From Burkholderiales bacterium (GTDB lineage Bacteria; Pseudomonadota; Gammaproteobacteria; Burkholderiales; Burkholderiaceae_C), in NCBI GenBank assembly GCA_016191525.1, contig JACPOK010000033.1, forward strand, positions 682,001-746,000: 64,000 bases of DNA, in the 5' to 3' direction. The notes below the pieces were generated by a model. That model was not told where the DNA came from. It ran no database searches and was given only the letters and a program-made list of their open reading frames with translations. This document shows positions 1,174 through 42,993 of the stretch, piece by piece (position 1 is the first letter of the stretch; the number at the start of each line of letters is the position of its first letter). The position numbers and the translations under genes were made by a program.

Positions 1174-1202
1174 CTTTTGCGGGGTGCTCGGCTACACTAG
1201 CC

Positions 1203-1360
1203 CGGTACGCGACTGGCGATAGGCACAGCGCCCTCACCGGGCAGCCTGTGCTGACGTGGGCACTACGCAGGGGTTCCCCCTGTGAAACCACTGGGAAGCG
1301 TGCCGCCGGAGTACCGACGAAAGGTTGGGCCGGTGATCAGCCGTTCGCCTGGGCAGCCCT
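1203..1360 (+). ncRNA. ZTP/ZMP riboswitch (pfl motif) in the glyA leader
   Basis: The 227-base gap before glyA carries the hallmarks of the pfl/ZTP aptamer. There is a P1 helix CGGTAC (1203-1208) / GTACCG (1311-1316) and the conserved GACTGGCGAT (1211-1220). ACCACTGGGAAGCG follows (1287-1300), then the 3' subdomain CCGTTCGCCTGGGCA (1341-1355). The class senses the purine intermediates ZMP/ZTP, which accumulate when 10-formyl-tetrahydrofolate is short, and is known upstream of one-carbon genes including glyA. A downstream stem can hide the glyA ribosome site, so control is probably translational. Confidence 0.85.
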
Positions 1361-1396
1361 TGTTTCCATACAGGGACCACCGTCTGAAGGACTGCC
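1352..1396 (+). promoter_or_regulatory. RBS-sequestering stem of the glyA riboswitch
   Basis: GGCAGCCCTT (1352-1361) pairs with AAGGACTGCC (1387-1396) with one mismatch. The second arm contains most of the glyA Shine-Dalgarno GAAGGA (1386-1391). The first arm overlaps the 3' end of the aptamer, so ligand binding and RBS masking look mutually exclusive. This suggests ligand-on translation, by inference from base pairing only. Confidence 0.6.
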
Positions 1397-28324: not shown

Positions 28325-28390
28325 TGCTCTGTTTTTGATAGCTGCCTACGCACAGCTGGTGCGCTTCGCAGGCATTTTTACCTCTGAAGT
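28325..28390. repeat. Interspersed short repeat, family B, copy 2
   Basis: Core blocks GATAGCTGCCTACGCACAGC and GGTGCGCTTCGCAGGCATTT are nearly the same as those of the copy at 51045-51110. It lies between the convergent soxB and amidohydrolase genes, and its last bases supply the amidohydrolase stop codon and the final codons (KLQR). Confidence 0.7.
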
Positions 28391-29790
28391 TTGGCCACCG
28401 CCGCCCGTGCATCGCGGCCCAGCTGTTGCAGGTCAAGGCCTTTGATGGCGCCCTCGCGCACCACTTCGTGCCCGCCCACCAGCAAGGCCCTGAGGTGCGC
28501 GGCGCCGCCGCTCGCCACGGGGCCGATGGCGGGATCATGGAGGCCGAAGTAACGCGGGTCGCGGTCCACTGCGTAGATGGCGAGGTCGGCGGCTTGTCCC
28601 GGAGCGATGGTGCCGACGGCAGACAGGCCCAGCACTTTCGCGCCGCCGGCCGTGCCCCAGCGCACCACGTCTTCCACCGTGGCTGCGGCGGCTGCCTCGT
28701 TCTCGCCCTTGCCTCCCCGGTGCAGTGCCACGGCTGCTTCACCGGCGCGTGCGCGCTGCATCAGCCAGGCGGAATGCACTTCCGAAATCATGTCCGCTGC
28801 CTCGTTGGAGGCGGCGCCATCGACACCGATCGACACGGTGGCGCCCGCGTCTTCCAGTGCGCGCACCGGCGCGATGCCGCTGCCCAGGCGGCCGTTGCTT
28901 TGCGGGCAGTGGGCGATGCCGGTATGGGTGCTGCCCAGCAACTCGATCTCGTCGGCGTCGAGCTTGACCAGGTGCGCGAACCACACGTCCTCGCCCAGCC
29001 AGTCGATGCTCTGCGCGAAGTGGATGGGCTTGATGCCGTGTTGCGCATGCACGGTGTCGTGGTAGTGCACGGTCTCCGACAGGTGCGAGTGCAGCCGCAG
29101 GCCAAGCTTGCGCGCGACGGCGGCGCATTCGCGCAGTTCCTGCGGGCGCATCGAATGGGGCGGCGTGGTCGGCGCCACCACCACGCGGCGCATGCCGTCG
29201 GCTGTGCTGTCGTGAAAGCGCGCGGCCAACCGCTCGATGTCGGCCAGGTAGCCGTCCAGCGTTTCGGGCCGCAGCGCGGGCGGCAGGTCGTCGGCCTGGA
29301 TGCGCGAGAGCGTGCCGCCGCCGCGGCACAGCACGAAGCGCAGGCCCAGGGCTGACGCTTCCTCGAACAGGATGGCCGAGCTGTCGTAGGGCATGCCGGG
29401 CCAGTAGTGATAGTTGTGGTCGGCCACCGTGCCGCAACCCGACAGCGCCAGCTCCACCAGGCCGATGCGCGCGGCCAGGCGGAACATGCCTTCGTCCATG
29501 CCGGGCCGCAGGCGGAACGGCGTCGCCGACAGCCAGGGCGTGAGCGTGGCGTTCACCCCCTGCGGATCGCCCTTGAGCAGCGATTGGAACAAATGGTGGT
29601 GCGTGTTGACCCAGGCCGGGTAGACCACGCAACCGCCGGCATCGATCTGCTCCTCGCCGGGTTCCGGCGTGAGCGAACCGATGGACGCGATCCTTCCGCC
29701 TTCGATCCGGATGTCCGGCCCCTTGTGGCGCGCCTCGTTGCCAGCCATGCCCGTGAGGATGGCCGTGGTGTTGCGTATCAACAGGCTCAT
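28378..29790 (-). CDS. Amidohydrolase of the 8-oxoguanine deaminase / hydroxyatrazine hydrolase (ATZ/TRZ) type
   Basis: A 470-residue metal-dependent deaminase. Ligands and signature segments are NTHHHLFQSLLKGDP (about 64-78), HLSET around the middle, the later His in IAHCPQSNGRL, and Asp in SIGVDGAASNEAAD. The wording of these motifs is closest to 8-oxoguanine deaminases and triazine hydrolases, so the substrate is probably an aminated N-heterocycle. It is last in the leftward catabolic island and overlaps the upstream Rieske gene by 4 bp (ATGA). Confidence 0.85.
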   Translation of the reverse strand: MSLLIRNTTAILTGMAGNEARHKGPDIRIEGGRIASIGSLTPEPGEEQIDAGGCVVYPAWVNTHHHLFQSLLKGDPQGVNATLTPWLSATPFRLRPGMDEGMFRLAARIGLVELALSGCGTVADHNYHYWPGMPYDSSAILFEEASALGLRFVLCRGGGTLSRIQADDLPPALRPETLDGYLADIERLAARFHDSTADGMRRVVVAPTTPPHSMRPQELRECAAVARKLGLRLHSHLSETVHYHDTVHAQHGIKPIHFAQSIDWLGEDVWFAHLVKLDADEIELLGSTHTGIAHCPQSNGRLGSGIAPVRALEDAGATVSIGVDGAASNEAADMISEVHSAWLMQRARAGEAAVALHRGGKGENEAAAAATVEDVVRWGTAGGAKVLGLSAVGTIAPGQAADLAIYAVDRDPRYFGLHDPAIGPVASGGAAHLRALLVGGHEVVREGAIKGLDLQQLGRDARAAVAKLQR

Positions 29791-30845
29791 GCCATTGCTT
29801 TCACGGCAGGCGGATTGCTGACATTCCCGCGATGGATCTCTTCTTCCCCATGCGCGCGCAGCAGGTCGAGCAACTGCTTGCGGATCACCAGGCCCGGCTT
29901 GTCGGACGGCATGTGGAATTCCACGCGGCGCGTGGTGTCCACGCACGCATCTGCGTCCGTCGCCTCCAGGATGTCGCGGTCCTCGGCCGTGATGGCCGCG
30001 TCCCAGTCGATGAGGGTCTGGGTGCTGCAGGCTTCCTCACTATCGTTGCGGTAGAGCCACTGCACCAGCATCATGCGTTCGTCGTCGATCGGCGTGGCGC
30101 AGTTGTAGATGATGTGGTGCACGCCGCTGGCGGGGTAGGTGCAGCCGAAGCGGCGCGAGAACGGCAGGTAGTAGCGGTTGATGAGGTGCCGCTCGGTAAT
30201 CGGCTCGGTGGTGCCCGTCACCGTGTGGCCGGCCTCGATGTTGCGGATGGGAACGCGCGTCTCGGCCTCGAAGCCGTAGTCGGTCTCGCGGAACTCGTAG
30301 GGCGCCGGCTTGGGGTTCTCCAGGATGCCGAAGTTGGCCTTGTGCACGAAGGAGAAGTGCGAGTTGTCGAACGAGTTTTCCATCATGCGCAAGGGGCTGG
30401 TCTTCCACTCCTCGTAGAACTGGAAGATGCGCCGGTAGCCGGGCGCGCCGTCCTCGGGGAAGTGCGGGATGGGCTTGAGCGGCTCGTCCAGCGCGACCCA
30501 GACATAGCCGTATTTCTCCTGCGCGCGGAAGGCGGGCACCTTGGCGCCGGCGGGAATCTGCAGGTCAGGCGCCTGCGGGATGTGCACGCAGGTGCCGGTG
30601 CAGTCGTAGGTCCAGCCGTGGTAGCCGCAGGTTATGTTGCCCTCCGCGCCGACCGTGCCCTTCGAGAGTTTGGCCGTGCGATGGCAGCAGCGGTCGCGCA
30701 ACGCGGCCGGCGTGCCGTCGGCCTGTTTCCACAGCACGAGGTCCTCGCCCATCAGCGTGAACGGCTTGGGGCCGTCATGGAGGTGCGACATGGGCATGAG
30801 CGCATACCAGAAGCGGCGCAGCACCGCCTGTCTAGTGGTCAGCAT
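29787..30845 (-). CDS. Rieske [2Fe-2S] non-heme iron oxygenase (copy 2)
   Basis: A 352-residue oxygenase. The Rieske centre is C53-x-H55 with C73-x2-H76 in CGYHGW. The mononuclear iron site is in ENSFDNSHFSFVH. Length and architecture match N- and O-demethylases (NdmA/B, VanA) better than ring dioxygenases. It is clearly paralogous to the neighbour at 30832-31887 (same RRFWYA.MPM N-terminus and DRCCHRTAKLSKGTV). Genes overlap on both sides. No reductase or ferredoxin is encoded nearby. Confidence 0.88.
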   Translation of the reverse strand: MLTTRQAVLRRFWYALMPMSHLHDGPKPFTLMGEDLVLWKQADGTPAALRDRCCHRTAKLSKGTVGAEGNITCGYHGWTYDCTGTCVHIPQAPDLQIPAGAKVPAFRAQEKYGYVWVALDEPLKPIPHFPEDGAPGYRRIFQFYEEWKTSPLRMMENSFDNSHFSFVHKANFGILENPKPAPYEFRETDYGFEAETRVPIRNIEAGHTVTGTTEPITERHLINRYYLPFSRRFGCTYPASGVHHIIYNCATPIDDERMMLVQWLYRNDSEEACSTQTLIDWDAAITAEDRDILEATDADACVDTTRRVEFHMPSDKPGLVIRKQLLDLLRAHGEEEIHRGNVSNPPAVKAMA

Positions 30846-31887
30846 GTTCGGCCTCCGTCACCGGGTGAATGCGGGTCCAGCCATGGGCTTCCTGCTCGCC
30901 ATGCTCCTTGAGCAGCGCGAGCAGGCGCTTGCGCATCAGCATGCCAGGCCGGTCGCTGGCCATGCTCTGCTCGTCGCGGCGCGACACGTCCACCGGCGCG
31001 TCGGCGTCCACCGATTCGAGGATGACCTTGTCTTCCAGCACGACCTTGGTGTCCCAGTCGTTGAGCAGTTGCGCAGGGCAATCCTCTTCGGTGTCGTTGC
31101 GGTACAGCCACTGGATCAGCTGCACGCGATGGTCGTCGATGGGTGTGGCGCAGGTGAAGATGGTGTGCTTGATGCCGCTGGGATAGATCAGGCCCAGCTT
31201 GCGCAGGAACGGCAGGTGCCACTGGTTGGAAAACTGCCGCTTGGTGGTCGGCTCGGTGGTGCCGGTGATGCGGTGCGACTGCGGCGGGTTGTTGATGGCA
31301 ATCACCATTCTTGCCTCGAAGCCGTAGTCGGTCTCGTCCAGCGCGAAGTGTTCCGGCTTGGGCTGGCCGCCCTGGCCGAAAGTGCCGGCATGGACGAAGG
31401 CGAAATGCGCCGAGTCGAACGAGTTTTCCATCAGCCGCAGCGCGCCGGTGTTCCAGCTCTCGTCGAACTGGTGGATGCGGCGGTAGCCCAGGGCCTCTTC
31501 TTCCGTGTCCAGCAAGGGCATCAAGGGGTCATCCAGTGCCACCCAGGCGTAGCCGAACTTTTCCTGGCAGTGGAAGGCGGGCACCTTCGCACCGGCCGGG
31601 ATCTGCAGGTCCGGCGCCTGCGGAATCCTCACGCAGGCGCCGCTGCAGTCGTAGGTCCAGCCGTGGTAGCCGCAGACGATGTTGTCGCCCTCTACGGTGC
31701 CCTTGGAGAGTTTCGCGGTGCGATGGCAGCAGCGGTCGCGCAGCGCGGCGGGCGTGCCGTCGGCCTTCTTCCACAGCACGATGTTTTCGCCCAGCAGGGT
31801 GAAGGGCTGCGGGCCAGCGTCGAGCCTGGCCATCGGCATCACGGCGTACCAGAAACGCCGCAGCACGGGTTGTTGTGTGACGAGCAT
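30832..31887 (-). CDS. Rieske [2Fe-2S] non-heme iron oxygenase (copy 1)
   Basis: A 351-residue paralogue of the following gene. Rieske ligands are C53, H55, C72 and H75. The catalytic iron motif is ENSFDSAHFAFVH. Divergence is greatest in the C-terminal catalytic domain, as expected if the two act on different positions or successive intermediates, like NdmA and NdmB in methylxanthine N-demethylation. It lies 13 bp downstream of a solute-binding protein gene. The substrate is unknown. Confidence 0.88.
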   Translation of the reverse strand: MLVTQQPVLRRFWYAVMPMARLDAGPQPFTLLGENIVLWKKADGTPAALRDRCCHRTAKLSKGTVEGDNIVCGYHGWTYDCSGACVRIPQAPDLQIPAGAKVPAFHCQEKFGYAWVALDDPLMPLLDTEEEALGYRRIHQFDESWNTGALRLMENSFDSAHFAFVHAGTFGQGGQPKPEHFALDETDYGFEARMVIAINNPPQSHRITGTTEPTTKRQFSNQWHLPFLRKLGLIYPSGIKHTIFTCATPIDDHRVQLIQWLYRNDTEEDCPAQLLNDWDTKVVLEDKVILESVDADAPVDVSRRDEQSMASDRPGMLMRKRLLALLKEHGEQEAHGWTRIHPVTEAEHADH

Positions 31888-31900
31888 GTCAAACCCCCGC

Positions 31901-32866
31901 TTATTTCTTCAGGTCTTTGAGGAACTGCAGGGTGTAGGCCTGCTGCCAGTTGGGGTTGGGCTTGAGTTGCCCGCTGGTGACCATCAGGTCATAGGTCTGC
32001 TTCCAGCGCGCATCGGTCATCACGCCGGCACCGGCCTTGGCCGCATCGCCGCCGTCCATGAACTTCATCTCCTTCATGGTCTTGACGGAGTAGGCGATGA
32101 GGTCGTCCTCCATCTTCGGGTTCTCCTGCTTGATCAGGGCATTGCCTGCGGCCGGATTGGCCAGGTAGCTCTTCCAGCCTTCCAGCGTGGCCTTGACGAA
32201 GCGCTGCACCACGTCGGGCTTGTCTTTGATCATCTGGCGCGTGGTGACGATGGTGTTGCCATACGGCGGGTAGCCTTCATCGGCGAACAGGAAGAACTTG
32301 ACCTTCTGGCCGGCCTTCTCCGCGATGAAGGGCTCGGAGCCGGGGTAGCCCTGCTGCGCCATGTTCTTGTCAGCGAAGAAGGGCTGCATGCTGAAGGTGT
32401 AGGGGCGGGTCTGCTCGTCCTTCAGGCCGTGCTTGATCTTCAGCCACGGCCACCAGCTGGTGCGCCCGCTCGTGGCCATCAGGATGGTCTTGCCCTTGAG
32501 GTCGGCCAGGCCCTTGACTTCGGGGTGCGTCACCATGCCCTGCGGCTCCATCTGGAACACCGCCGCCACCGTGGTCAGCGGCACGCCGTTCTCGATGGCC
32601 GACAGGGTCTGGAAATCCTTGCCCATGATGAAGTCGGCCTGGCCGGCGGCGATGATCTGGATCGCGTTGACCTGCGGCCCGCCCATCTTGATGGTGACGT
32701 CCAGCCCGTACTTCTTGTAGATGCCGGTGGCAACGGCCTGGTAGTAGCCGCCGTGTTCGGCCTGGGCGTACCAGGACGTGAGGAAGGTGACCTTGTCCTG
32801 CGCGTGGGCAGTCAGGGCCGTGAAGGCGGCAGTTGCGAAAGCAATGGATGCGAGCGCGCGTTTCAT
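31901..32866 (-). CDS. ABC transporter substrate-binding protein, NMT1/THI5-like (copy 1)
   Basis: A 321-residue periplasmic binding protein. A signal peptide ends at TAHAQ (about 22). The N-terminal WYAQAEHGGYYQAVATG and YGLDVTIKMGGPQVN are typical of the NMT1/THI5 group, which binds pyrimidine-like and other heterocyclic or organic ligands. It is very similar to the protein at 36486-37469, but that one sits with the ABC genes. GGAG precedes the ATG. It probably gives the importer a second specificity. Confidence 0.87.
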   Translation of the reverse strand: MKRALASIAFATAAFTALTAHAQDKVTFLTSWYAQAEHGGYYQAVATGIYKKYGLDVTIKMGGPQVNAIQIIAAGQADFIMGKDFQTLSAIENGVPLTTVAAVFQMEPQGMVTHPEVKGLADLKGKTILMATSGRTSWWPWLKIKHGLKDEQTRPYTFSMQPFFADKNMAQQGYPGSEPFIAEKAGQKVKFFLFADEGYPPYGNTIVTTRQMIKDKPDVVQRFVKATLEGWKSYLANPAAGNALIKQENPKMEDDLIAYSVKTMKEMKFMDGGDAAKAGAGVMTDARWKQTYDLMVTSGQLKPNPNWQQAYTLQFLKDLKK

Positions 32867-32911
32867 GCGGATTCTCCGGTGATGTGTGTGAAACAACCAG
32901 AGCAATGACCC

Positions 32912-32929
32912 GTGGCGTTGAGCCGCCAC
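32912..32929. repeat. Intercistronic hairpin
   Basis: Inverted repeat GTGGCG / CGCCAC with a 6-base loop, in the 99-bp gap between the RidA gene and the first binding-protein gene. No T-run follows, so it is more likely an RNA-processing or stabilising stem than a terminator. A binding-protein gene needing high expression lies directly downstream on the minus strand. Confidence 0.35.
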
Positions 32930-32965
32930 TGCCTGCTTCTACTCTGCGAAAAACGGATGCAAGTC

Positions 32966-33430
32966 TCATGCCTTGCGGGGCACGAACAGGGTCGCCTCCA
33001 CTTCGATGAGCGCGCCGTCGCCGGGCATGAAGCGCGAGACTTCCACCACCGTGCTGGCCGGTGGCTCCCCGGGGTAAAACAGGCCGCGCACGCGGTTGTA
33101 AAACGGGTAGTGGCGCAGGTCGCGGAAGTACTGCACCAGCTTGATGGCGTCCTTCATGTCGCCGCCGTGCTCTTTGGCGATCTGGCGGATGCGGTCCAGC
33201 ACGAACCAGCTCTGCACCACGGCAGGCGCTTCGTAGATGTCCACCGTCATCTGGCCGGTGACGTAGCCCAGGCTTTGCAGGGCCTCCACCGCTTCAGCGG
33301 GCAGCTCGTCGTAGCTTTGCAGAACAGCCTTGCGCGCCGGGTCCACTGCCACCACGCCGCTGACGAACACGAAGTCGCCCGCCCGCCTTGCTGAAGCGTA
33401 GTTCGCCATCGGCTTCCCCGCCGCGGTCAT
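32966..33430 (-). CDS. RidA/YjgF family protein
   Basis: A 154-residue member of the RidA family, whose members deaminate reactive enamine/imine intermediates or act as catabolic hydrolases (for example RutC in uracil breakdown). FVSGVVAVDP, SLGYVTGQMTVDIYEA and a C-terminal VEVSRFMPGDGALIEVEATL are visible. The canonical Arg of true RidA (in CARSAVEV-type motifs) is replaced (STVVEVSRF), so it is a pathway-specific variant. Coupled to the FAD oxidase by an ATGA overlap. Confidence 0.82.
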   Translation of the reverse strand: MTAAGKPMANYASARRAGDFVFVSGVVAVDPARKAVLQSYDELPAEAVEALQSLGYVTGQMTVDIYEAPAVVQSWFVLDRIRQIAKEHGGDMKDAIKLVQYFRDLRHYPFYNRVRGLFYPGEPPASTVVEVSRFMPGDGALIEVEATLFVPRKA

Positions 33431-34791
33431 TTCGGAATCCCCTGCGCCCAGGCCCGCACCTTGCCGGGGTTGAGCAGGTTGTGCGGATCGAAGCGGCGCT
33501 TGGTGTCGATGACGGCCGGCGCCAGGTCGCCGTTGGCACGGCCGTCTTCCACGATGAAGACGTGCGGGTCGTTGATGCGCACGCCGTTGTCGCGGTGGAT
33601 CTTCATGATTTCCTGCAGCCGCTCTTCGGTGGTGAACCTCACCAGCTGCAGCGCGGTGCAGGTCATGAGGCCGTCCATGTTGCGGATGAATTCGCAGTGC
33701 ATCAGCGCCTCGCCGCCCAGCAGCTTTTCCATGCGGCGAACCTGCTCCAGGTGCTGGCCGGGGATGAAGGCGCTCTGCAGGTAGGTGATGCTCTTGTCCA
33801 CCCGCATTGCATGCAGCGTGGTGTGGTTCCAGGTGTATTCGAGCAGCGTGCGGTTGCCGGCCGCCACTTCGGCCGCGCCCTTGCGGTAGGTGACGGTGCC
33901 GCGGAACTGCGCCACCAGTTCCAGGTACGCCGGTTCGCTCTGTTCGGCCACGAGCACGATGCAGGCATGGCAGCCGGCAGGCAGGTAGTCGGCCAGCTGC
34001 TTGATGTAGTCCGGCACCGGCGCAGCCATGAAGGCCAGCTCCTTCTTGACGATGCCGGGTGCGCGCGAGAGCGCGTCGGCAAAATCCAGCGCATCGTCGA
34101 ACGTGGCGAAGGTGACGATGGCCTCAAGCCAGTCGTGCACCGGCGCCATTGCCAGCTCGATCTCAAGCACCAGTCCGTTGGTGCCCCAGACATGGTGCAT
34201 GGCCAGCGCCTCGGGGCCGCGCAGCTCGATGACCTGCGGGTTCTCCTCGATGGTCATGGCCTTGAGGCCCAGCACGTTGCCGCGCGAACCGAGCGGCCCG
34301 TAGTTGATCGAGCCGATGCCGCCGAACCCACCGCCATACAGGCCGCCCAGGGTGGCGCTGCGGTAGGTCGAGGGCATGCAGCGCAGCTCCAGCCCCTGGT
34401 CGCGCGTGGCCTTCTCCAGGTCCCACAGGCGGATGCCGGCCTGCGCGCGGGCGGCGCCGTTTCGCGCCCACAGGAAGGCGTTGTAGCCGCTCATGTCCAG
34501 CAGCACACCGCCCTGCACCGGCACGCACTGCCCGTAGTTGCCGGTGCCGCTGCCGCGTACCGTGATGGGAATGCGCAGGCGCGCGCACAGGCCGACCAGC
34601 GCGTGTATCTCATCCTCGTTGCGCGGGCGCACCGCGGCTGCGGCGGATTTGCCTTCCAGCTGGCGCTTGAGCACCGGGCTGTACCAGTTGAAATCCTGCG
34701 ACAGGCGCGCGATGCGGCCTTCGTCGGTGACCCAGTCCAGGCCGGGCAGCTCGGCGTGCAATTGTTCTATGGGGTGCACAGGTGCGTTCAC
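33427..34791 (-). CDS. FAD-binding oxidase (PCMH/VAO fold, GlcD-like)
   Basis: A 454-residue flavoprotein oxidoreductase. The PCMH-type FAD-binding domain occupies about 1-220 (VRPRNEDEIHALVGL, VRGSGTGNYGQ, GIRLWDLEKATRDQGLELRCMPST, LGGLYGGGFGGIG). The C-terminal cap/substrate domain follows. Such enzymes oxidise alcohols, 2-hydroxy acids or amines. A pathway role after the hydrolases is plausible, but the substrate is unknown. Confidence 0.82.
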   Translation of the reverse strand: MNAPVHPIEQLHAELPGLDWVTDEGRIARLSQDFNWYSPVLKRQLEGKSAAAAVRPRNEDEIHALVGLCARLRIPITVRGSGTGNYGQCVPVQGGVLLDMSGYNAFLWARNGAARAQAGIRLWDLEKATRDQGLELRCMPSTYRSATLGGLYGGGFGGIGSINYGPLGSRGNVLGLKAMTIEENPQVIELRGPEALAMHHVWGTNGLVLEIELAMAPVHDWLEAIVTFATFDDALDFADALSRAPGIVKKELAFMAAPVPDYIKQLADYLPAGCHACIVLVAEQSEPAYLELVAQFRGTVTYRKGAAEVAAGNRTLLEYTWNHTTLHAMRVDKSITYLQSAFIPGQHLEQVRRMEKLLGGEALMHCEFIRNMDGLMTCTALQLVRFTTEERLQEIMKIHRDNGVRINDPHVFIVEDGRANGDLAPAVIDTKRRFDPHNLLNPGKVRAWAQGIPK

Positions 34792-34807
34792 TTCGTTGCC
34801 TCTTTGT

Positions 34808-35674
34808 TCAATCGCGCGAGAGTTCGCTGGCGTGCCAGGAGCCCAGCGCCAGCTTGGTCAGCCAGGCCATCAGCGCGAACAGGCCCACGCCCGCTAGCGA
34901 GATCAGCAACAGCGCGGCAAACATGCGGGGGATGTTCAGCTGGTAGCCGGCCATCAGGATCTGGTAGGCCAGGCCCGTGGCCGCGCCGCCGGTGCCGGCC
35001 ACGAATTCCGCCACCACCGCGCCGATCAGCGCCAGGCCGCTGGAGATGCGCAGGCCGCCGAAGAAGTAAGGCAGCGCGCTGGGGATGCGCAGGCGCATCA
35101 GCGTCTGCGCACGGCTGGCGCGGTTCATCGCGAAATAGCTTTGCAGGTCGGGGTCGATGCTGCGCAGGCCCAGCGTGGTGTTGGAGATGATGGGAAACAG
35201 GGCCACCAGCGAGGCGCATGCCACCAGCGACGCCGTGGGGTTCTTCACCCAGATGATGATCAGCGGCGCCACGGCCACGATGGGCGTCACCTGCAGCAGC
35301 ACGGCGTAGGGGAACAACGCGGTCTCGATCTTGCGGCTCTGCACGAACAGGAAGGAAATCAGCACGCCCACGACGGTGGCCACGGCGAATGACAGCAGCG
35401 TGATCTTCAGCGTCACCAGCAGCGAGCCGCCCAGGGACTCCCAGTCGGTGGCCAGCGTCTGGAACATGAGTAGCGGCGAAGGCACCAGGTACGGCGGCAG
35501 CTTGAAGCCGGTCACGAGTGCCTGCCAGGCCGTCAACAGCACGATGGCGACGACGCTGGGGTAGAGCACTTTCTGCACTCTTTCCGAGGGCTGCCGCGGA
35601 ACCGGCTTTGCCGGGCCGCTGGCAGCGCCCCCTTGAGGGGGAGGCGGCTGCAAGCCGCTTCGGGGGGGAGTCAT
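34808..35674 (-). CDS. ABC transporter permease, NMT1/THI5-type importer (SsuC/TauC-like)
   Basis: A 288-residue inner-membrane permease with about six helices and the inner-membrane signature around MNRASRAQTLMRLRIPSALPYFFGGLRISSGLALIGAVVAEFV. The first 30 or so residues (TPPRSGLQPPPPQGG...) are encoded by a family A repeat, so the true start may lie further in (near the first helix). It overlaps the ATPase gene by 4 bp. Confidence 0.87.
   Translation of the reverse strand: MTPPRSGLQPPPPQGGAASGPAKPVPRQPSERVQKVLYPSVVAIVLLTAWQALVTGFKLPPYLVPSPLLMFQTLATDWESLGGSLLVTLKITLLSFAVATVVGVLISFLFVQSRKIETALFPYAVLLQVTPIVAVAPLIIIWVKNPTASLVACASLVALFPIISNTTLGLRSIDPDLQSYFAMNRASRAQTLMRLRIPSALPYFFGGLRISSGLALIGAVVAEFVAGTGGAATGLAYQILMAGYQLNIPRMFAALLLISLAGVGLFALMAWLTKLALGSWHASELSRD
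35590..35672. repeat. GC-rich palindromic repeat, family A, inverted copy 3, inside a coding region
   Basis: GCGCCCCCTTGAGGGGGAGG, followed by GGCTGCAAGCCGCTTCGGGGGGGAG, runs on the opposite strand to copies 1 and 2. It is translated as the Pro/Gly-rich N-terminus of the ABC permease and abuts its presumed start codon. Confidence 0.55.
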
Positions 35675-36486
35675 ATTTTTTCCTCGTCGGTGTCGGCGCT
35701 GGCCCGCAGCAGGCTGTCCTGCAGGCGTTTGGCGTACTCGGCAAAGCGCGGCGTGACCATGAAGTCGGGCGTGCGCGGGTAGGGCTCGTCGATCAGCACT
35801 TCCTCGACGATGCGGCCGGGCCGCGCCGCCATCATCACCACGCGGTTCGACAGAAACACCGCTTCGTGGATGGAGTGGGTGACGAAGATGACGGTGAGCT
35901 TCTTCTCGCGCCACAGCGCCAGCAGGTCGGCGTCGAGCTTGTGGCGCGTGATCTCGTCCAGCGCGCCGAAGGGCTCGTCCATCAACAGCAGGTTGGGCTG
36001 CACCACAAGGCTGCGCGCGATCGACACACGCATCTGCATGCCGCCCGACAACGCGCGCGGCAGCGAGCCGGCGAACTTCGTCAGGCCCACCAGTGCGAGG
36101 GCCTCCGCAACGCGGGCGTCGGCCTCGGCGCGCGGCAGGCCCGCCAGGTCCAGCGGCAGCCGCACGTTGGCCGCCACGCTGGCCCAGGGCATGAGCGTGG
36201 GCGCCTGGAACACGAAGGCCAGCTTGCGCTGTGTTTCATCCAGCTGTGCCACGGGCTTGCGCCACAGCAAGAGGCGCCCGTCGGTCGGCTCCAGCAGGCC
36301 GGCCACCATCTTGAGCAGCGTGCTCTTGCCGCAACCCGACGGGCCCAGCAGGGTGACGAACTCCCCTTCCCTCACCGTAAGTTCCACCGGCTGCAGCGCG
36401 ACCGTCCCGTTGGGATAGGTCTTGTGCGCCGACAGCACTTCGACGGCGGGAACCGCCGCACCCAGTGCGGCAGGCGCCTCACGCAT
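35671..36486 (-). CDS. ABC transporter ATP-binding protein
   Basis: A 271-residue ATPase. Walker A is GPSGCGKST (about 48-56), the Q-loop FVFQAPTLMPW, the signature LSGGMQMRVSIARSL, Walker B LLLMDEPFGALDE and the switch His in VTHSIHEAVFLSNR. It belongs to the nitrate/sulfonate/taurine (SsuB/TauB) family and powers import through the adjacent permease and the two binding proteins. 1-bp overlap with the upstream binding-protein gene. Confidence 0.93.
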   Translation of the reverse strand: MREAPAALGAAVPAVEVLSAHKTYPNGTVALQPVELTVREGEFVTLLGPSGCGKSTLLKMVAGLLEPTDGRLLLWRKPVAQLDETQRKLAFVFQAPTLMPWASVAANVRLPLDLAGLPRAEADARVAEALALVGLTKFAGSLPRALSGGMQMRVSIARSLVVQPNLLLMDEPFGALDEITRHKLDADLLALWREKKLTVIFVTHSIHEAVFLSNRVVMMAARPGRIVEEVLIDEPYPRTPDFMVTPRFAEYAKRLQDSLLRASADTDEEKI

Positions 36487-37469
36487 CACGGCATCACCTT
36501 CAGGTCCTTGATGAACTGCAGGTCGTAGGCCTGGGTCGGGCCGACCTTGCCGGCATCGACCAGCTTGTTGTCCACCAGGAAAGCGTGGTTCTTGCGCACG
36601 CGGTCGATGTCGATGCTGCCGATGCCGCTCTTGCCCGCGCCGCCGCCGGTGATGATGCCCATCTCCTTGAGCTTGGCCACGCTGTAGGCCAGCTGCTCGT
36701 CGGTCATGTTGGGGTTGTCCTTCTTGATCAGGGCATTGGCCGGCGCCGGGTCGGCCAGGTAGCTTTTCCAGCCTTCCATGGTTCCCTTGACGAATGCGGC
36801 CATGGCCTGCGGTCTGTCCTTGACGGTCTGCTCCATGCAGGAAATGGTGGTGGAGTACGAGGGCCAGCCGGCATCGGCGAACAGGAAGGTGTTCGCCTTG
36901 ACGCCGGCCTTCTGCACGGCGAAGGGCTCGCTGGTCAGGTAGCCCTGCTGCACGGTGTTCTTGTCGGCGACGAAGGGCTGGATATTGAAGGTGTAGGGCT
37001 TGGTCTGCTCGTCGGCGAAGCCGTATTTGCTCTTGAGCCACAGCCAATAGCCCTGGCGGGCGGACGAGGCGATCAGGATGGTCTTGCCCTTCATGTCCTC
37101 GAACTTCTTCACGTCCTCGTGGGCGATCAGCACCTGCGGGTCTTTCTGGAAGCTGGCGGCCAGCGTGACGATGGGCAGGCCATTGCTGCGCGCCACCATG
37201 ATCTGCAGGTCGCTCGAGCCCATGACGCAGTCGGTCTGCCCCGCGCCCAGCATCTGCATGATGTTGACCTGCGGGCCGCCCATCTTGATGGTCACGTCCA
37301 GGCCGTACTTCTTGTAGATGCCGGTGGCCACGGCCTGGTAGAAGCCGCCGTGCTCGGCCTGCGCATACCAGTTGGTCATGTAGGTGACCTTTTCCTGCGC
37401 CTGGGCGGCAGTGGCAAATGCCAGGGCGAGTGAGGCGGCCAGCAGGGTGCGTGCGATGGAAGCTTTCAT
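36486..37469 (-). CDS. ABC transporter substrate-binding protein, NMT1/THI5-like (copy 2)
   Basis: A 327-residue periplasmic protein. A signal peptide ends at TAAQAQ (about 25). It shares WYAQAEHGGFYQAVATG and YKKYGLDVTIKMGGPQVN with copy 1 at 31901-32866 but differs in the ligand-facing part (for example SSARQGYWLWLKS versus TSGRTSWWPWLKI). It is coupled to the ATPase gene, so it is the resident binding protein of the importer. Confidence 0.88.
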   Translation of the reverse strand: MKASIARTLLAASLALAFATAAQAQEKVTYMTNWYAQAEHGGFYQAVATGIYKKYGLDVTIKMGGPQVNIMQMLGAGQTDCVMGSSDLQIMVARSNGLPIVTLAASFQKDPQVLIAHEDVKKFEDMKGKTILIASSARQGYWLWLKSKYGFADEQTKPYTFNIQPFVADKNTVQQGYLTSEPFAVQKAGVKANTFLFADAGWPSYSTTISCMEQTVKDRPQAMAAFVKGTMEGWKSYLADPAPANALIKKDNPNMTDEQLAYSVAKLKEMGIITGGGAGKSGIGSIDIDRVRKNHAFLVDNKLVDAGKVGPTQAYDLQFIKDLKVMP

Positions 37470-37530
37470 GGATGACCTCTCGTGACGTGGGTTGAAAGAA
37501 GGTTGCGATGCAAGGAGTGCGCCCGTGGGG

Positions 37531-38385
37531 TCACAGGCTTTGCTGGATGTGGCCGGTCTGGTGGCCGTAGCCCCAGGATTCGACGTCGCGCACCACCCAT
37601 TGCATGTGGAACAGGTCGGTAATCGCCGTGACCCAGCTGCTCGACAGCGTGTCCAGGATGTCCAGGCCCTGTTCACGCGTGGCCTGCAGGGGGTCGCCGA
37701 TCACGCCGCTGGGACCGAAGTCGCGCGAAGTCCAGGCGCAGGCCGGGCGGCCGTCACCCGACAGGATCTTCGAAGGAAACGGCGGCGGGAAGTTGGCCAC
37801 GGCACGCTCCATGTGCACCGTGTCCGGCGCCAGCGCCATCATCAGCGCTGTCTCCGAGTGGCCGGCGTGCATGGCCAGGCGGCGCTCTTCGTCCGAGATG
37901 TACTTGCCCGAGGAATTGGGCAGGCGCGACACGTGGTAGGGCACGATGACGAAGTCGCCATGGCGCAGGCGCAGCTCGCGCGCCGCCATTTCCAGCACCT
38001 GCGGCTGGCCGCCGTGGCCGTTGGCCAGCAGCAGCTTGCGGAAGCCCGCGCGGTAGACCGATTCGCCCAACTCGGTGATGGTGGCCAGCAGCGTGGTGCC
38101 GGTCAGCGTCATGGTGCCGGGAAAATGCAGGTGCTCGTCGGACTTGCCGTAGGTGATGGGTGCCATGCCGAAAGCGCGCACGTCGGCCGGCAGTTTTTCC
38201 AGCGCCTTGCCCAGCACGCCCGAGGAGATGACGCTGTCAACGGAGCACGGCAGGTGCGGGCCGTGTTGCTCGATCGCACCGACGGGCAGCACGATGACGG
38301 TGTTCTCGCGGTCCGGCAGGGCCGCGACTTCGGTCCAGGAGAGATAGGGCAGGAAGCGGTGCGGTGGGATGTAGCCGTGAATCAT
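37531..38385 (-). CDS. Creatininase-family amidohydrolase
   Basis: A 284-residue metal hydrolase. The metal site has Glu and His in LPVGAIEQHGPHLP (about 33-46), His in ANGHGGQPQVLEMA, and HAGHSETALMMAL. The family opens cyclic amides (creatinine) and other amide bonds. In this island it is the best candidate for ring opening of a hydantoin- or lactam-like intermediate. Start codon chosen as MIHGYIPP; 4-bp overlap with the upstream amidohydrolase. Confidence 0.87.
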   Translation of the reverse strand: MIHGYIPPHRFLPYLSWTEVAALPDRENTVIVLPVGAIEQHGPHLPCSVDSVISSGVLGKALEKLPADVRAFGMAPITYGKSDEHLHFPGTMTLTGTTLLATITELGESVYRAGFRKLLLANGHGGQPQVLEMAARELRLRHGDFVIVPYHVSRLPNSSGKYISDEERRLAMHAGHSETALMMALAPDTVHMERAVANFPPPFPSKILSGDGRPACAWTSRDFGPSGVIGDPLQATREQGLDILDTLSSSWVTAITDLFHMQWVVRDVESWGYGHQTGHIQQSL

Positions 38386-39641
38386 GGGAGCGGCCTTTCG
38401 TTGGAAGGAGTGAGGGCGACGCCGCCGCGCAGGACGGTGCGTTGGGCCGAGCGCGAGGGCCAGCCCCAGGCGTCGGTGGAGGTGAAGACAACGAGGTCGG
38501 CTGCGGCACCGACAAGACTCGGTGCGGCCAGCGGCGTGCGGCCCAGCCAGTCGCCGCGGCACAGGCTTTCGGACCAGGTGTCGAACGGCGCATCGAGTTG
38601 CGCGGCCAGCACGCCGGCCGCCAGTGCTTCGACCGGGTCGTAGCTGCCGACGCGGCAGAACGGGTCCTGCACGTTGTCGCTGGCAATCAGCACCGGGATG
38701 CCGCGTTCGCGCGCTTCCTTGAGCAAGGTCAGGCCGCGAATGCGCGGCGTACGGCCGGTGACGGCGTCCTGCAGCAAGAGGTTGGTGATCGGCAGCGAGA
38801 CCAGCGTGATGGGCAGTTTTGCTACCGCATCCAGTGTGGCCAGGGCCTGGGCTTCGGGCTGCACCGCGAGCGAGCAGGTGTGGCCGCAGACCACGCGGCC
38901 GGCAAAGCCGGTGTCACGCAGGATGCGCGCGGTCTCCACCAGGCCCTGGGCCTGCGGGTTGAGTTCTTCGTCCACATGCAGGTCGACGTCGAGCCCTGCT
39001 TCGCCCGCGGCGATGAAGACATGGCGCAGGGCCTGCGCGGCCCAGTTCACGGAGTGGACGAAGGCACCCAGGCGCGCGTGCGCTCCGGCAGCCTTGACCT
39101 GCGCCGCGAACTTGTGCGCTTGCGCCAGTTCCTGGAACAGGGTGAGCTTGACCAGGCTGACCTGCTCCAGCGCGATGCGGCCTTTCCATTCTTCGGCCAG
39201 CGCGGCCATCACGTCCCACGCCACGGGCACGTGGCCGGTTTCCCACCAGTCCACATGGGTGCGTACCTGTACGCAACCGGCCTCGTAGGCCCAGGCGAGC
39301 GCACGGCCGGCGCGCTCGTGCACATCCTGCGGCGTCCAGCCCATGCGGTCCGTCATCATGGCGTCGATCGCGCCCAGCAGGCCGGGCCGCACGCGGCCCG
39401 TGCGCGGCAGCGTGAAGGTCTTGTCCAGGTGGGTGTGGGCATCGACCAGGCCGGGCAGCACCGGCGCGCCGTTCACGTTCCATGCGCCTTCGGCGGCGGC
39501 ACCGGATACCGGCATCACCGATTCGACCCTGCCACCTGCCAGCTTCAGGTCAGCCAGCACGGGCTGCCCTGCGCTGGACGGCCAGGCGTCGCCGAGCAGC
39601 CACTTGGGCAGCCGCGCGTTGGTGATGCGTTCCACCGTCAT
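38382..39641 (-). CDS. Amidohydrolase, cytosine deaminase (CodA)/AtzC-like
   Basis: A 419-residue TIM-barrel hydrolase. The metal motif VDAHTHLDKTF (about 66-76), VRTHVDW, DLHVDEELNPQAQGL, VVCGHTCSL and ASDNVQDPFCRVGSYDPVEAL mirror the order in cytosine deaminase. This supports removal of an exocyclic amine from a pyrimidine- or triazine-type ring. GAGG precedes the ATG. It overlaps both neighbours by 4 bp. Confidence 0.85.
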   Translation of the reverse strand: MTVERITNARLPKWLLGDAWPSSAGQPVLADLKLAGGRVESVMPVSGAAAEGAWNVNGAPVLPGLVDAHTHLDKTFTLPRTGRVRPGLLGAIDAMMTDRMGWTPQDVHERAGRALAWAYEAGCVQVRTHVDWWETGHVPVAWDVMAALAEEWKGRIALEQVSLVKLTLFQELAQAHKFAAQVKAAGAHARLGAFVHSVNWAAQALRHVFIAAGEAGLDVDLHVDEELNPQAQGLVETARILRDTGFAGRVVCGHTCSLAVQPEAQALATLDAVAKLPITLVSLPITNLLLQDAVTGRTPRIRGLTLLKEARERGIPVLIASDNVQDPFCRVGSYDPVEALAAGVLAAQLDAPFDTWSESLCRGDWLGRTPLAAPSLVGAAADLVVFTSTDAWGWPSRSAQRTVLRGGVALTPSNERPLP

Positions 39642-40225
39642 GCAAACCTCGCCATCGCTTCCCCGACGCGGCGCTTGAAGGCCGCCAGGCGCGGCTCGGT
39701 CGCCACGTTCATGTGGTAGTACGCATGGAAGTCCACGCGGGCCGTGTCGCCCGTGAGGCGCTTCATGTAGCGCGTGATGATCTTGCGCGGCGGGTCGCCC
39801 ATGTACCAGGCCACCCAGCGCGGCCGGCCGTAGGTGACCACGGCAGAGATGCGCTTGATGTGCGTCAGCATGGGCTTCACGTTGGCCGGGTCGCTGATGT
39901 CGAAGGCCACGCCCGGCATGAAGAGCCGGTCGAAGTAGCCCTTGAGCATGGCCGGCAAACCAAAGCACCATGTCGGAAAGCAGAAGACGATGGCCTCGGC
40001 CTTGCGCAACCGCTCTATGTAGTCAGCCAGGGCGACCTGGTTGGACGGCACGTCGTGGTAGCCCAGGCGCTCTTCACGCGAGAGCACCGGGTTGAAGCCC
40101 TCGGCGTAGAGGTCGCAGTCGTCCACCGTGTGGCCGGCGGTCTTGAGGTTGGCCACCACCTCGGCGTGCAGCGCCGCGGCGAAACTGGTTTCGACGGGAT
40201 GGCAGTAGACGACCAGGACATGCAT
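39638..40225 (-). CDS. Flavodoxin-fold NAD(P)H oxidoreductase
   Basis: A 195-residue NAD(P)H dehydrogenase (quinone)/KefF-type protein. LVVYCHPVETSFAAAL (about 4-19) binds FMN phosphate. AEAIVFCFPTWCFGLPAMLKGYFDRLFMPGVAF is the diagnostic second block. It could supply reducing power in the pathway, although it is not a standard Rieske reductase. It is the first gene after the sigma-54 promoter and operator. The ATG at 40225 gives a canonical N-terminus; a TTG at 40333 would lie inside the operator and is rejected. Confidence 0.83.
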   Translation of the reverse strand: MHVLVVYCHPVETSFAAALHAEVVANLKTAGHTVDDCDLYAEGFNPVLSREERLGYHDVPSNQVALADYIERLRKAEAIVFCFPTWCFGLPAMLKGYFDRLFMPGVAFDISDPANVKPMLTHIKRISAVVTYGRPRWVAWYMGDPPRKIITRYMKRLTGDTARVDFHAYYHMNVATEPRLAAFKRRVGEAMARFA

Positions 40226-40321
40226 GGCAGCTACCGGCTGGCACGCACCGTGACCGTGAACAGCGCACCTGAAATGTGCGCGGAACGGCTGGCGGAGGCG
40301 GTTTTGTGGGCCTTGGTGTTC

Positions 40322-40358
40322 AATTCTGACCAATCAATTTGACTGATTGGTCAGAATT
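40322..40358. promoter_or_regulatory. Perfect 15-bp inverted repeat, predicted TetR-family operator
   Basis: Arms AATTCTGACCAATCA (40322-40336) and TGATTGGTCAGAATT (40344-40358) are exact reverse complements around a 7-bp spacer. The inner TGACCA...TGGTCA resembles the half-sites of RutR operators. It lies between the TetR gene and the catabolic genes, covering about -10 to +27 of the sigma-54 promoter at 40359-40374. Binding there should block transcription initiation. Confidence 0.8.
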
Positions 40359-40374
40359 AGCAAACAGCGTGCCA
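40359..40374 (-). promoter_or_regulatory. Sigma-54 (-24/-12) promoter of the catabolic island
   Basis: On the minus strand the sequence is TGGCACGCTGTTTGCT, a full match to the TGGCACGNNNNTTGCW consensus, with GG and GC 10 bases apart. It starts 28 bp after the TetR stop codon. The predicted start of transcription is near 40348, inside the inverted repeat. Sigma-54 promoters need an enhancer-binding activator such as NtrC; I could not locate a convincing activator site upstream. Confidence 0.75.
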
Positions 40375-40401
40375 GAGCCCCGCCCGGCCAGGGCTATTTA
40401 T

Positions 40402-41028
40402 TCAAGGGGTTTTAATACCGCAGCCGCGCAGCAGCAGCGTGGTCAGCTGCTTGACCAGCGCCTCGCGGTCAGGTTGCCAGCCTTCAACACCGGGCTTGAT
40501 CAGGTGGCGCACCTGCACCGCTGAATCGGCATAGAACTGCGTCATCGACCAGATGCTCATCAGCAGCACGTGCGGGTCCACCGGCTTCATCAGGCCGCGG
40601 GCGATCCAGCCGTTGATGATGTTGACCTTTTCCTGCGTGCGCATGCGCGAATCGGGCCAGAACTTTTCCAGGTTGCGCCCGCCGTCCAGCACTTCGCGGG
40701 TGAAGATGCGCGAAACCTCGGGCTTGTCGAACGCCTGGTCGATCTTGAAGCGGATGTAGTCGCCCAGCACCTTGCCCGGGTCGGTGGAGCCGGCGTCGAA
40801 CATGCCGCGCCAGTCGGACATCACGGACATCAGCAGCTCTTCGTAGAGCTCTTCCTTGCCCTTGATGTAGTAGTGCAGCTGCGGCTTGGTGAGGCCCGCG
40901 CGCGCCGCAATCGCCTGCGTGGACGTGCCCTTCAGGCCGTTCTCGCTGAACTCGGCTATCGCCGCCTCGCGGATCGCGGCGAGGATGCGTTCGCGGTTTT
41001 CGCGGGGCTTGCGGGTGGGAGTGTTCAA
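40402..41028 (-). CDS. TetR-family transcriptional regulator, RutR-like
   Basis: A 208-residue repressor. The HTH is at about 15-60 (RERILAAIREAAIAEFSENG; TSTQAIAARAGLTKPQLHYYIKGKEELYEELL). The C-terminal ligand domain resembles the RutR/YcdC group, which senses uracil and thymine. It probably binds the inverted repeat 44 bp past its own stop. The start is uncertain: TTG at 41028 gives a normal TetR N-terminus and leaves 63 bp to the divergent gene. ATGs at 41073 and 41079 are in frame but leave almost no promoter space. Confidence 0.85.
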   Translation of the reverse strand: MNTPTRKPRENRERILAAIREAAIAEFSENGLKGTSTQAIAARAGLTKPQLHYYIKGKEELYEELLMSVMSDWRGMFDAGSTDPGKVLGDYIRFKIDQAFDKPEVSRIFTREVLDGGRNLEKFWPDSRMRTQEKVNIINGWIARGLMKPVDPHVLLMSIWSMTQFYADSAVQVRHLIKPGVEGWQPDREALVKQLTTLLLRGCGIKTP

Positions 41029-41091
41029 GGCGGGGGAATCGTAGCAGAGGCGGGCCGTGACAAGCGCGGCCATTGGCATTCCAATACAGGC

Positions 41092-41748
41092 ATGAATGCG
41101 AATACAGCCACCGCCCCCGACTACCTCAACCCCGCCCTGCCCGCGGGCCTGGCCACCGTGCGCATCCTGGTGGTGGAAGCCACGCCGCAATCGCTACAGG
41201 GCTACGGGGTACTTGTGGACGACCCCAAAGCCCAGCGCGTGGAGATCGTGCGCTGGCCGGCGCAGGGCTGGCGGCCAGTGGATGCCGACAGCGGCGACGA
41301 AGGCGGCACCACCCGGGGAAAGTTCATCTCCGAATGGGAAGGCGACGTCCTCTACGGAAAGAACGACGCGGTGGGCGGCCACTACATCATCGGCTACGGC
41401 ACGCTGCCCGAGGTGGCCGACACCACCCATCGCCGCGACCCGGAACGCCTGCTGCTGTGGCATTGCAACTACCACCCGGATGGCGGCCAGTTGTTCTTTC
41501 CGCTGGAGCCCGGGCCGTTCCTGGTGCCGCTGGCGCTGCCCGGCGACGACGTGAAGCCGCAGGACTTTGTCTGTTTCCGCTTCAGCGGCGGCCAGGGCCT
41601 GTACATCCACCCCAACGTCTGGCACGAGGGCGTCTTCGCACTGAAGGGACGCCGCAGCTTCTACGACGAACAGGGTGCGGTGCACGCGCGCGTGTCGGTC
41701 AACTTCGCGGCGGAGTTCGGCTGCCTGCTGGAGATGCCGCTGCGCTAG
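41092..41748 (+). CDS. Ureidoglycolate lyase-like protein (AllA family)
   Basis: A 218-residue cupin-fold protein resembling ureidoglycolate lyase, which releases glyoxylate and urea at the end of purine/allantoin breakdown. Visible family features are GQGLYIHPNVWHEGVFAL and the C-terminal VHARVSVNFAAEFGCLLEMPL. It is longer than E. coli AllA (160 residues), with an N-terminal extension. It is transcribed away from the TetR gene, so both may share control. It suggests the island funnels into ureide metabolism. Confidence 0.72.
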   Translation: MNANTATAPDYLNPALPAGLATVRILVVEATPQSLQGYGVLVDDPKAQRVEIVRWPAQGWRPVDADSGDEGGTTRGKFISEWEGDVLYGKNDAVGGHYIIGYGTLPEVADTTHRRDPERLLLWHCNYHPDGGQLFFPLEPGPFLVPLALPGDDVKPQDFVCFRFSGGQGLYIHPNVWHEGVFALKGRRSFYDEQGAVHARVSVNFAAEFGCLLEMPLR

Positions 41749-42069: not shown

Positions 42070-42993
42070 TCAGCGGCCCCAGCGCAGCACCAGGGCATCG
42101 AGCCGTCGCGCGGTCTCGATCAGCAGCGCGCGGCTGTCGGGATGAATCTCCGGGAACGGGTGGCGCGGTGCCTCGCAGGCGATCACGCCGCCCTCCTTCA
42201 TCAGCGACTTGGCCGCCATCGGGCCGCACTGACGGTTTTCGATGTTGATCAGCGGCAGCCAGCGTTCGTAGGCCGCTATGGCCTCATCGCGCCGGCCCGC
42301 CCGGTACGCTTCAAGAATCGGCTTGATGCCGTCGGGAAAGCCGCCGCCCGTCATCGCGCCGGTGGCGCCGGCGTCCAGGTCGGGCAGCAGGGTGATGGCC
42401 TCTTCGCCGTCCCACGGCCCTTCAATGGCGTCGCCGCCCAGGCGGATCAGCTCGCGCAGCTTGGCCGCGGCACCCGCGGTTTCGATCTTGAAGTACGCGA
42501 CGTGCTCGATCTCTTTGGCCATGCGCGCCAGGAAGGCCGCGGACAGCGGCGTGCCGGCTGCCGGCGCGTCCTGGATCATGATGGGAATGTCCACCGCGTC
42601 CGACAGGCGCGCATAGAACTCCTGGATCTTCGGCTCGCCCACGCGGAAGGTGGCGCCGTGATACGGCGGCATCACCATCAGCATGGCGGCGCCCATGTCC
42701 TGCGCGCGGCGGCTGCGCGCGGCGCACACCCGGGTGCTGAAGTGCGTGGTGGTCACGATCACGGGCACGCGGCCGGCCACGTGCTCCAGGATGGCCCGGG
42801 TCAGCACTTCGCGCTCGTCGTCGGCCAGCAGGAACTGCTCGGAGAAATTGGCCAGGATGCACAGGCCGTCGGAGCCGGCCTTGATCATGAAATCGACGCA
42901 GCGCTTCTGGCTGGCCAGGTCCAGCTCGCCGGCTTCGGTGAAGGTGGTGGGGACGACGGGGAACAGGCCCCGGTAGCGTGCTGGCGTGCTCAT
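42070..42993 (-). CDS. Dihydrodipicolinate synthase (DapA)-family lyase
   Basis: A 307-residue class I (Schiff-base) lyase. The lysine is in YFKIETAG (about residue 168). The aldolase-core [10 protein letters not shown] and [15 protein letters not shown] are visible. The usual YNxP segment reads IQDAPAAGT, so the Tyr typical of DapA and NanA is missing, suggesting a sugar-acid dehydratase/aldolase or another variant. By neighbours it should act on a 2-keto-3-deoxy acid. Overlaps the next gene by ATGA. Confidence 0.83.

Follow-up and report, generated by a model that had tools for sequence, protein, structure and literature searches.

Background

The breakdown of the pterin and folate ring by bacteria was followed chemically decades ago, and it has few genes assigned to it. 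Work on Alcaligenes in the 1960s is said to have led from isoxanthopterin through violapterin, tetraoxypteridine and xanthine-8-carboxylate to xanthine. Tetrahydroxypteridine cycloisomerase (EC 5.5.1.3) is an old orphan enzyme. The protein of structure 2PAJ, which we take to be an isoxanthopterin deaminase, is reportedly an environmental sequence that lacks a pathway context; Hall et al. 2010 reportedly found by a library screen that it acts on isoxanthopterin and pterin-6-carboxylate. Here we describe a compact and testable gene set in a 64,000-nucleotide stretch (the window) of contig JACPOK010000033.1 from a Burkholderiales bacterium. This island encodes two deaminases, a pair of Rieske oxygenases, a flavin oxygenase, a creatininase-like hydrolase, a Rid protein and a transporter, and it carries a xanthine riboswitch. 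Judged from the nearest characterized relatives of its proteins, from which every substrate is deduced, it is probably a system in two halves for the import and breakdown of pterins (folate-derived pteridines).

The degradation of folic acid in the environment has not been fully elucidated, and in the accessible text of the Variovorax sp. F1 study the fate of the deaminated products is left open (PMC9513972). That text describes a pterin deaminase of 399 amino acids acting on folic acid and pteroic acid, whose homologues have conserved endoribonuclease genes downstream. The xanthine riboswitch class is described as an OFF switch for xanthine and urate, and the genes reported downstream of it include those for NMT1-like proteins, dioxygenases and amidohydrolases of the PRK12393 type (Yu and Breaker 2020, PMC7373994). 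The portion seen of a crystal-structure paper agrees on the ligands (PMC8266621). In the same portion of their report, the discoverers saw no genes for the degradation of oxidized purines and no clear metabolic purpose (PMC7373994). Searches of the open-licence literature, which left most subscription journals outside their scope, returned no paper joining these parts. The parts are known individually.

Organization of the island

The preliminary description of this DNA had proposed twelve leftward genes between 28378 and 40225, mostly joined by short overlaps or gaps, and this layout was confirmed. Its family assignments also hold at the superfamily level in profile searches. With the preferred start codon of each gene (that of codA taken from its translation), 7 of the 11 junctions overlap by 1-14 bp and the remaining gaps are 13, 16, 61 and 99 bp. 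The features are as follows, in the direction of transcription.

40402..41079, minus strand: TetR regulator, RutR-like (RutR 117.4 bits, cut-off 368)
39638..40225, minus strand: Flavodoxin_2-fold NAD(P)H oxidoreductase, flav (PF02525, 103.6 bits)
38382..39641, minus strand: CodA-like amidohydrolase (PRK07583, 308.5 bits, cut-off 403 not reached)
37531..38385, minus strand: creatininase-family amidohydrolase, crea (PF02633, 232.4 bits)
36486..37469, minus strand: solute-binding protein 2 (SBP2), NMT1-like by similarity to SBP1
35671..36486 (start 36489 or 36486), minus strand: ABC ATPase (TIGR01184 and many ATPase families)
34808..35674, minus strand: ABC permease (NF040733/TIGR01183)
33427..34791, minus strand: FAD_binding_4 flavin oxygenase, FAD (relative of 6V42)
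32966..33430, minus strand: Rid-family (Ribonuc_L-PSP) protein (PF01042, 52.9 bits)
32895..32949, minus strand: xanthine (NMT1) riboswitch aptamer (RF03054, 49.4 bits, gathering 36)
31901..32866, minus strand: NMT1/THI5-type solute-binding protein 1 (SBP1; PF09084, 118.7 bits)
30832..31887, minus strand: Rieske oxygenase A (RieA; Rieske and VanA_C, PF00355 and PF19112)
29787..30845, minus strand: Rieske oxygenase B (RieB; Rieske and VanA_C, PF00355 and PF19112)
28378..29790, minus strand: PRK12393 amidohydrolase (727.9 bits, cut-off 543)

The overlaps are 4 bp at flav/codA, codA/crea, ATPase/permease, FAD/Rid and RieB/deaminase, 14 bp at RieA/RieB and 1-4 bp at SBP2/ATPase. The gaps separate crea from SBP2 (61 bp), the permease from FAD (16 bp), Rid from SBP1 (99 bp) and SBP1 from RieA (13 bp). 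Because the riboswitch lies in the 99-bp gap, the two halves of the block come under different control. Half 1 comprises flav, the CodA-like gene, crea, SBP2, the ATPase, the permease, FAD and Rid, and half 2 the riboswitch, SBP1, RieA, RieB and the PRK12393 deaminase. The RutR-like TetR gene stands immediately upstream of the block and is the probable regulator of the island.

Relatives of the island proteins

The last gene of the block encodes an amidohydrolase that passes the PRK12393 cut-off (727.9 bits against 543) and fails that of the 8-oxoguanine deaminases (PRK08203, 388.9 bits against 532). The latter identity was therefore rejected, and the label "8-oxoguanine deaminase-like" given to it before proved imprecise. 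Its best solved relative is 2PAJ (658 bits), followed by 7WW2 (261 bits) and 3HPA (253 bits). The substrate pocket of 2PAJ is presumably marked by a motif of Gln, Tyr and two Thr. The alignment places the same Gln, Tyr and Thr-Thr positions, as well as the metal motifs, in the window deaminase. Both Thr occur in 24 of the 28 aligned sequences, the window included, the exceptions being those of loci L100, L103, L104 and L047. The L047 protein is a true PRK08203 member (686.7 bits, cut-off 532) with Cys-Ser at the Thr-Thr positions, and the deaminases of L092 and L095 have both Thr and lack the Gln. We propose from these similarities that the window protein is an isoxanthopterin deaminase. Since the superfamily is broad, a class-wide PRK12393 search at E <= 0.001 matched 300 of 369 genomes, of which just the 2 over the cut-off were used.

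Among solved structures, only 6V42 is close to the flavin oxygenase (E 1.4e-109, 370 bits across 442 residues; next 51.5 bits). The same entry ranks first in Foldseek for the predicted model (mean pLDDT 83), with a TM score of 0.90 and 42% identity. Its PDB title reads "flavin oxygenase with cofactor bound involved in folate catabolism". By sequence and predicted fold the two proteins share a subfamily. Among the open-licence papers listed in the searches, none gave an organism, reaction or gene context for 6V42, or anything useful on 2PAJ or the cycloisomerase. The flavodoxin-fold reductase would supply electrons to the oxygenase. Its gene is absent from three Hydrogenophaga loci, where a DmmA-like reductase gene stands in its place.

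The CodA-like protein misses every cytosine deaminase cut-off (PRK07583, 308.5 against 403; PRK07572, 105 against 438; PRK09230, 78 against 483), and AtzC is a distant match to its predicted fold. It is 37-40% identical to proteins of two Variovorax genomes (L069 and L070). Directly after these proteins comes a Rid gene whose product is 67-71% identical to the window Rid. The Variovorax pair is probably the published Variovorax pterin deaminase with its downstream endoribonuclease, because the genus, the 399-residue length and the downstream Rid agree. We thus propose that the window protein is a relative of that enzyme, namely a pterin deaminase of the PRK07583 group. In L069 and L070, open reading frames (ORFs) that resemble a class II aldolase and hydroxypyruvate isomerase by eye precede the two genes, perhaps for the pterin side chain.

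The nearest solved relative of Rid is 3LYB. We propose that Rid is an imine/enamine hydrolase and that the creatininase-family protein, which misses the creatininase cut-off (TIGR04448, 93.7 against 235), is a ring-opening hydrolase. The solved relatives of SBP1 include the formylaminopyrimidine-binding protein and THI5, which serve pyrimidine binding or thiamin pyrimidine synthesis. SBP2 had no match in NCBIfam and aligns with SBP1-type proteins of relatives at 51-57%. Among solved structures RieA comes closest to NdmA (147.7 bits), and close relatives of RieB sit behind riboswitches in other genomes.

The xanthine riboswitch

A minus-strand xanthine (NMT1) riboswitch at 32895-32949, within the gap between Rid and SBP1 and ahead of the last four genes, escaped the preliminary description. 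The covariance model RF03054 matches over positions 1-56 of 56 at 49.4 bits (gathering 36), and at E <= 0.001 the genome has no other match. The end of the aptamer is 28 nt from the SBP1 start codon, with GGAG in between. Riboswitches are present at 6 of the 24 core loci described below. They occupy the corresponding place in L026, L027, L028 and L030, and in L045 and L047 they precede a Rieske gene and a 2-oxoglutarate (2OG) oxygenase gene that adjoin the same core genes. By analogy with its class, we propose that the window aptamer senses xanthine or urate as a product and turns half 2 down.

The ribosome site CCGGAG before SBP1 can pair with CUCUGG on the 3' side of stem P1 of the aptamer (window 32866-32949; also L026, L027 and L028), and in L047 CUCUUGAA and UUCAAGGAG pair likewise. 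A simple competition of this kind would predict an ON switch with ligand, the opposite of the published OFF behavior. The folding energies of the two competing states are equal (-29.0 and -29.0).

Linkage in other genomes

A search with the FAD protein gave 24 core loci in Burkholderiales-type genomes, where FAD and its close relatives are found by construction. The counts at these loci are lower bounds, several being cut by contig ends. The preliminary description had suggested seeking the same gene set elsewhere, and the set is linked: the permease occurs at 24 loci, the ATPase at 23, an NMT1 binding protein at 21, and the creatininase-like protein and Rid at 20 each. Flavodoxin-like and CodA-like proteins follow (16 each), then TetR (13), a Rieske oxygenase (10) and the window-type PRK12393 deaminase (6). 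A CDA-type deaminase is found at 6, Hydantoinase_B at 4, UreD at 3 and an 8-oxoguanine deaminase at 1. The window's flanking genes (soxB, DHDPS-like, MR, pdxA) occur at 0 of 24. The linkage of the island genes is beyond chance.

Co-occurrence was counted in 399 genomes of the order, by tests that ignore kinship, so that the p values are too small. The riboswitch is found in 17 (13 over the cut-off), PRK12393 over the cut-off in 18 and FAD at E <= 1e-90 in 8. The riboswitch and PRK12393 occur together in 10 genomes where 0.77 are expected (hypergeometric p 3e-11), or in 7 (expected 0.59, p 1.6e-7) when riboswitches over the cut-off are counted. FAD occurs with PRK12393 in 5 (expected 0.36, p 5e-6) and with the riboswitch in 4 (expected 0.34); 7 of the 8 genomes with FAD have at least one of these two. 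With the window's own genome left out, the riboswitch and PRK12393 coincide in 9 (expected 0.68) and FAD and PRK12393 in 4 (expected 0.30). A riboswitch over the cut-off shares a locus with PRK12393 in genomes G000, G119, G178 and G255, and the two are on different contigs in G058, G158 and G314.

Around PRK12393 genes outside the window (20 stretches), a related binding protein is found in 12, a permease in 11, a Rieske oxygenase in 5, FAD and a flavodoxin-like protein in 4 each and a creatininase-like protein in 3. FAD and PRK12393 are linked in L099, L101, L102 and L104, which belong to lineages without the window's arrangement. L104, from another family of the class, has ABC, creatininase-like, SBP, flavodoxin-like, PRK12393, FAD and 2OG oxygenase genes in another order, together with a cytosine-deaminase-type amidohydrolase (467.5 bits, cut-off 438), and is an independent assembly of the gene set.

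Within 8 kb of distant FAD homologues at 15 places, on stretches that are in some cases shortened by contig ends, creatininase-like genes are found at 8 places, Rid at 7, a PRK07583/PRK12393-type deaminase at 8 and any of these at 12. The creatininase-like protein, the flavin oxygenase and Rid thus form a recurring unit, often with a relative of the pterin deaminase. L112 and L113 hold a Variovorax-type deaminase (54% and 70%), which in L113 accompanies FAD, creatininase-like, Rid, ABC, SBP and flavodoxin-like genes.

Some loci depart from these patterns. Half 1 occurs twice in tandem at L034:3448-19710, each copy with TetR, CodA-like, creatininase-like, binding protein, ABC and FAD genes. In L038, L039 and L040, a urease-type gene set begins with UreD directly after half 1, which suggests the release of urea. 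Two tandem FAD oxygenase homologues without the usual partners lie behind Cu-oxidase_4 at L107:7937-10946, and a single one lies behind Cu-oxidase_4 in L108.

Proposed pathway and alternatives

The observed gene content, linkage, riboswitch and finishing genes can be read together as a pterin pathway because the nearest characterized relatives (PRK12393/2PAJ, 6V42 and the Variovorax pair) point to pteridines. One ABC importer with two binding proteins would take up the pterin. The CodA-like and PRK12393 deaminases, of different specificity, would remove 2-amino groups, the latter converting isoxanthopterin to violapterin. The flavin oxygenase with its reductase, Rid and the creatininase-like hydrolase would together oxidize and open the ring or the side chain, with Rid clearing the imine and the hydrolase cutting a cyclic amide. 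The NdmA-like RieA and RieB would hydroxylate ring carbons. The route would end at xanthine or urate, which the riboswitch would sense, and xanthine dehydrogenase (XDH), HIU hydrolase and OHCU decarboxylase encoded elsewhere would finish it. Contig C37 of the same genome carries xdhB (1159 bits, cut-off 849.5) along with genes for HIU hydrolase and OHCU decarboxylase, so a product such as xanthine or urate can be used. The last two enzymes are found in 28 of 29 genomes tested, some of them incomplete. Urate degradation was considered as the role of half 1 and was rejected as unnecessary in view of these genes.

A more specific version is possible, if doubtful. In it, pteridines would be oxidized and their ring contracted to give xanthine, and the island would hence encode the tetrahydroxypteridine cycloisomerase, EC 5.5.1.3. 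The two Rieske oxygenases would then account for two ring hydroxylations and the creatininase-like hydrolase for the opening of the amide before contraction. In the open-licence literature, xanthine-8-carboxylate and tetrahydroxypteridine were named together only in one metabolomics table.

Several points weigh against the pterin reading. The reading takes 2PAJ to be an isoxanthopterin deaminase whose Thr pair marks the pocket, and the activities in the island are predictions, as are the substrates, the order of steps, the in vivo ligand and the ring-opening chemistry. The nearest folds to the model of the CodA-like protein (pLDDT 87) are cytosine deaminases at 22-24% identity, and its identity to the Variovorax proteins, themselves matched to the published enzyme indirectly, is only 37-40%. 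Most PRK12393 loci are without the rest of the set (FAD in 4 and Rieske in 5 of the 20), a riboswitch over the cut-off was found in 0 of the 14 PRK12393 stretches scanned for it (L089-L104, minus L095 and L100), and 3 of the 15 FAD places have no partner gene. Half 1 also adjoins a true 8-oxoguanine deaminase (L047) and, at 6 of 24 loci, CDA-type deaminases, a setting that fits guanine-type purines. In the accessible text of their report, the discoverers of the riboswitch read the linked genes as purine oxidation, most analogues were rejected by the aptamer, and isoxanthopterin is named only as a compound purchased for testing (PMC7373994).

These last points lead to the main rival, the catabolism of oxidized or methylated purines, which we consider unlikely. 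On this view the substrate of the Rieske oxygenases is a guanine-type purine, which they would hydroxylate or N-demethylate and from which the deaminase would strip the 2-amino group. The product, xanthine or urate, would feed back on the riboswitch, and half 1 would serve a related oxidized guanine. Xanthine and urate are indeed the ligands of the class in the text available (PMC7373994), and RieA is, among solved proteins, most like the methylxanthine demethylase NdmA. However, the window deaminase misses the PRK08203 cut-off and its pocket motif is unlike that of the true PRK08203 relative in L047, the flavin oxygenase groups with an enzyme named for folate catabolism, and pterin-deaminase-like genes recur next to FAD homologues. 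Methylated xanthines are not bound by the riboswitch according to the same text, so it is uninformative on them as substrates (PMC7373994). It is also unlikely that the halves are separate pathways with a shared ABC transporter, in which half 2 would deaminate a pterin or purine under the riboswitch and half 1 would serve another ring (such as a pyrimidine, hydantoin or creatinine-like compound). Half 1 without half 2 and half 2 without half 1 are both seen, the former in many loci; SBP1 and SBP2 differ, and half 1 is near Hydantoinase_B in 4 loci and UreD in 3. The excess co-occurrence of FAD with PRK12393, their linkage in four loci of other lineages and the folate-catabolism title of 6V42 argue instead for one pathway. 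Degradation of a triazine, creatinine or a uracil-type compound, to which resemblances at the superfamily level would lead, is very improbable, given the missed creatininase, RutR and RutC cut-offs and the distance of the AtzC fold match. The general idea of N-heterocycle degradation in the preliminary description is thus retained. Among its substrates (a modified pyrimidine, purine, triazine or hydantoin) the modified purine stays as the main rival; pteridines, which it did not list, fit best.

If the pterin reading is true, the xanthine riboswitch gains a second possible reason to exist. In the doubtful ring-contraction version, the riboswitch would respond to the end product of pterin breakdown, its place ahead of an isoxanthopterin deaminase would be explained, and part of its regulon would consist of pterin rather than purine genes. 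Culturable relatives, Caenimonas sedimenti (L030) among them, also carry the island.

Other features of the window

The divergent gene at 41089-41748 (plus strand) encodes an AllA-like protein with a weak Pfam match in the last third only. It had been included in the island as "ureidoglycolate-lyase-like", a membership now rejected: it scores 38 bits in Pfam and at best 34 in NCBIfam (cut-off 230), and is found at 0 of 24 core loci at E <= 1e-5. It is probably a bystander. Genes at 42070-45187 (minus strand) are DHDPS-like, enolase-superfamily sugar-acid dehydratase-like and PdxA-like; they probably serve sugar-acid catabolism and are not conserved with the island. A ZMP/ZTP riboswitch at 1199-1361 (plus strand; 41.1 bits, cut-off 39) precedes an ORF at 1248-2645 that appears by eye to be a glycine/serine hydroxymethyltransferase. 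No tRNA was found within the window.

Comparison with known systems

The island equals none of the Rut, purine and methylxanthine pathways, as the preliminary description had held. The scores for RutR (117.4 against 368), RutC (46.3 against 169.1) and creatininase (93.7 against 235) all fall below their cut-offs; for the Rut pathway this covers RutR and RutC, since RutA and RutB were not searched for. The methylxanthine N-demethylases NdmA and NdmB are the best solved relatives of RieA, a likeness of 147.7 bits only. The Ndm system has an NdmD-type reductase, whereas none is found among the island genes, to which the search was confined. The Yu and Breaker regulons have the aptamer class in common with the window, and half 1 is not described in the accessible part of that report (PMC7373994). 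The Variovorax F1 system shares the downstream Rid, and in the part of the paper available no oxygenase cluster is described there (PMC9513972). The link to the published pterin deaminases (Arad3529 and Variovorax F1) was drawn through the Variovorax relatives at 37-40% identity rather than the published sequences. The flavin oxygenases of 6V42 and 6V43 are of the same subfamily as the window protein, 6V42 having been compared by sequence, fold and PDB title only. The 2PAJ deaminase has the same pocket positions as the window deaminase, whose gene shares an operon with those for the Rieske oxygenases and a binding protein, behind a riboswitch.

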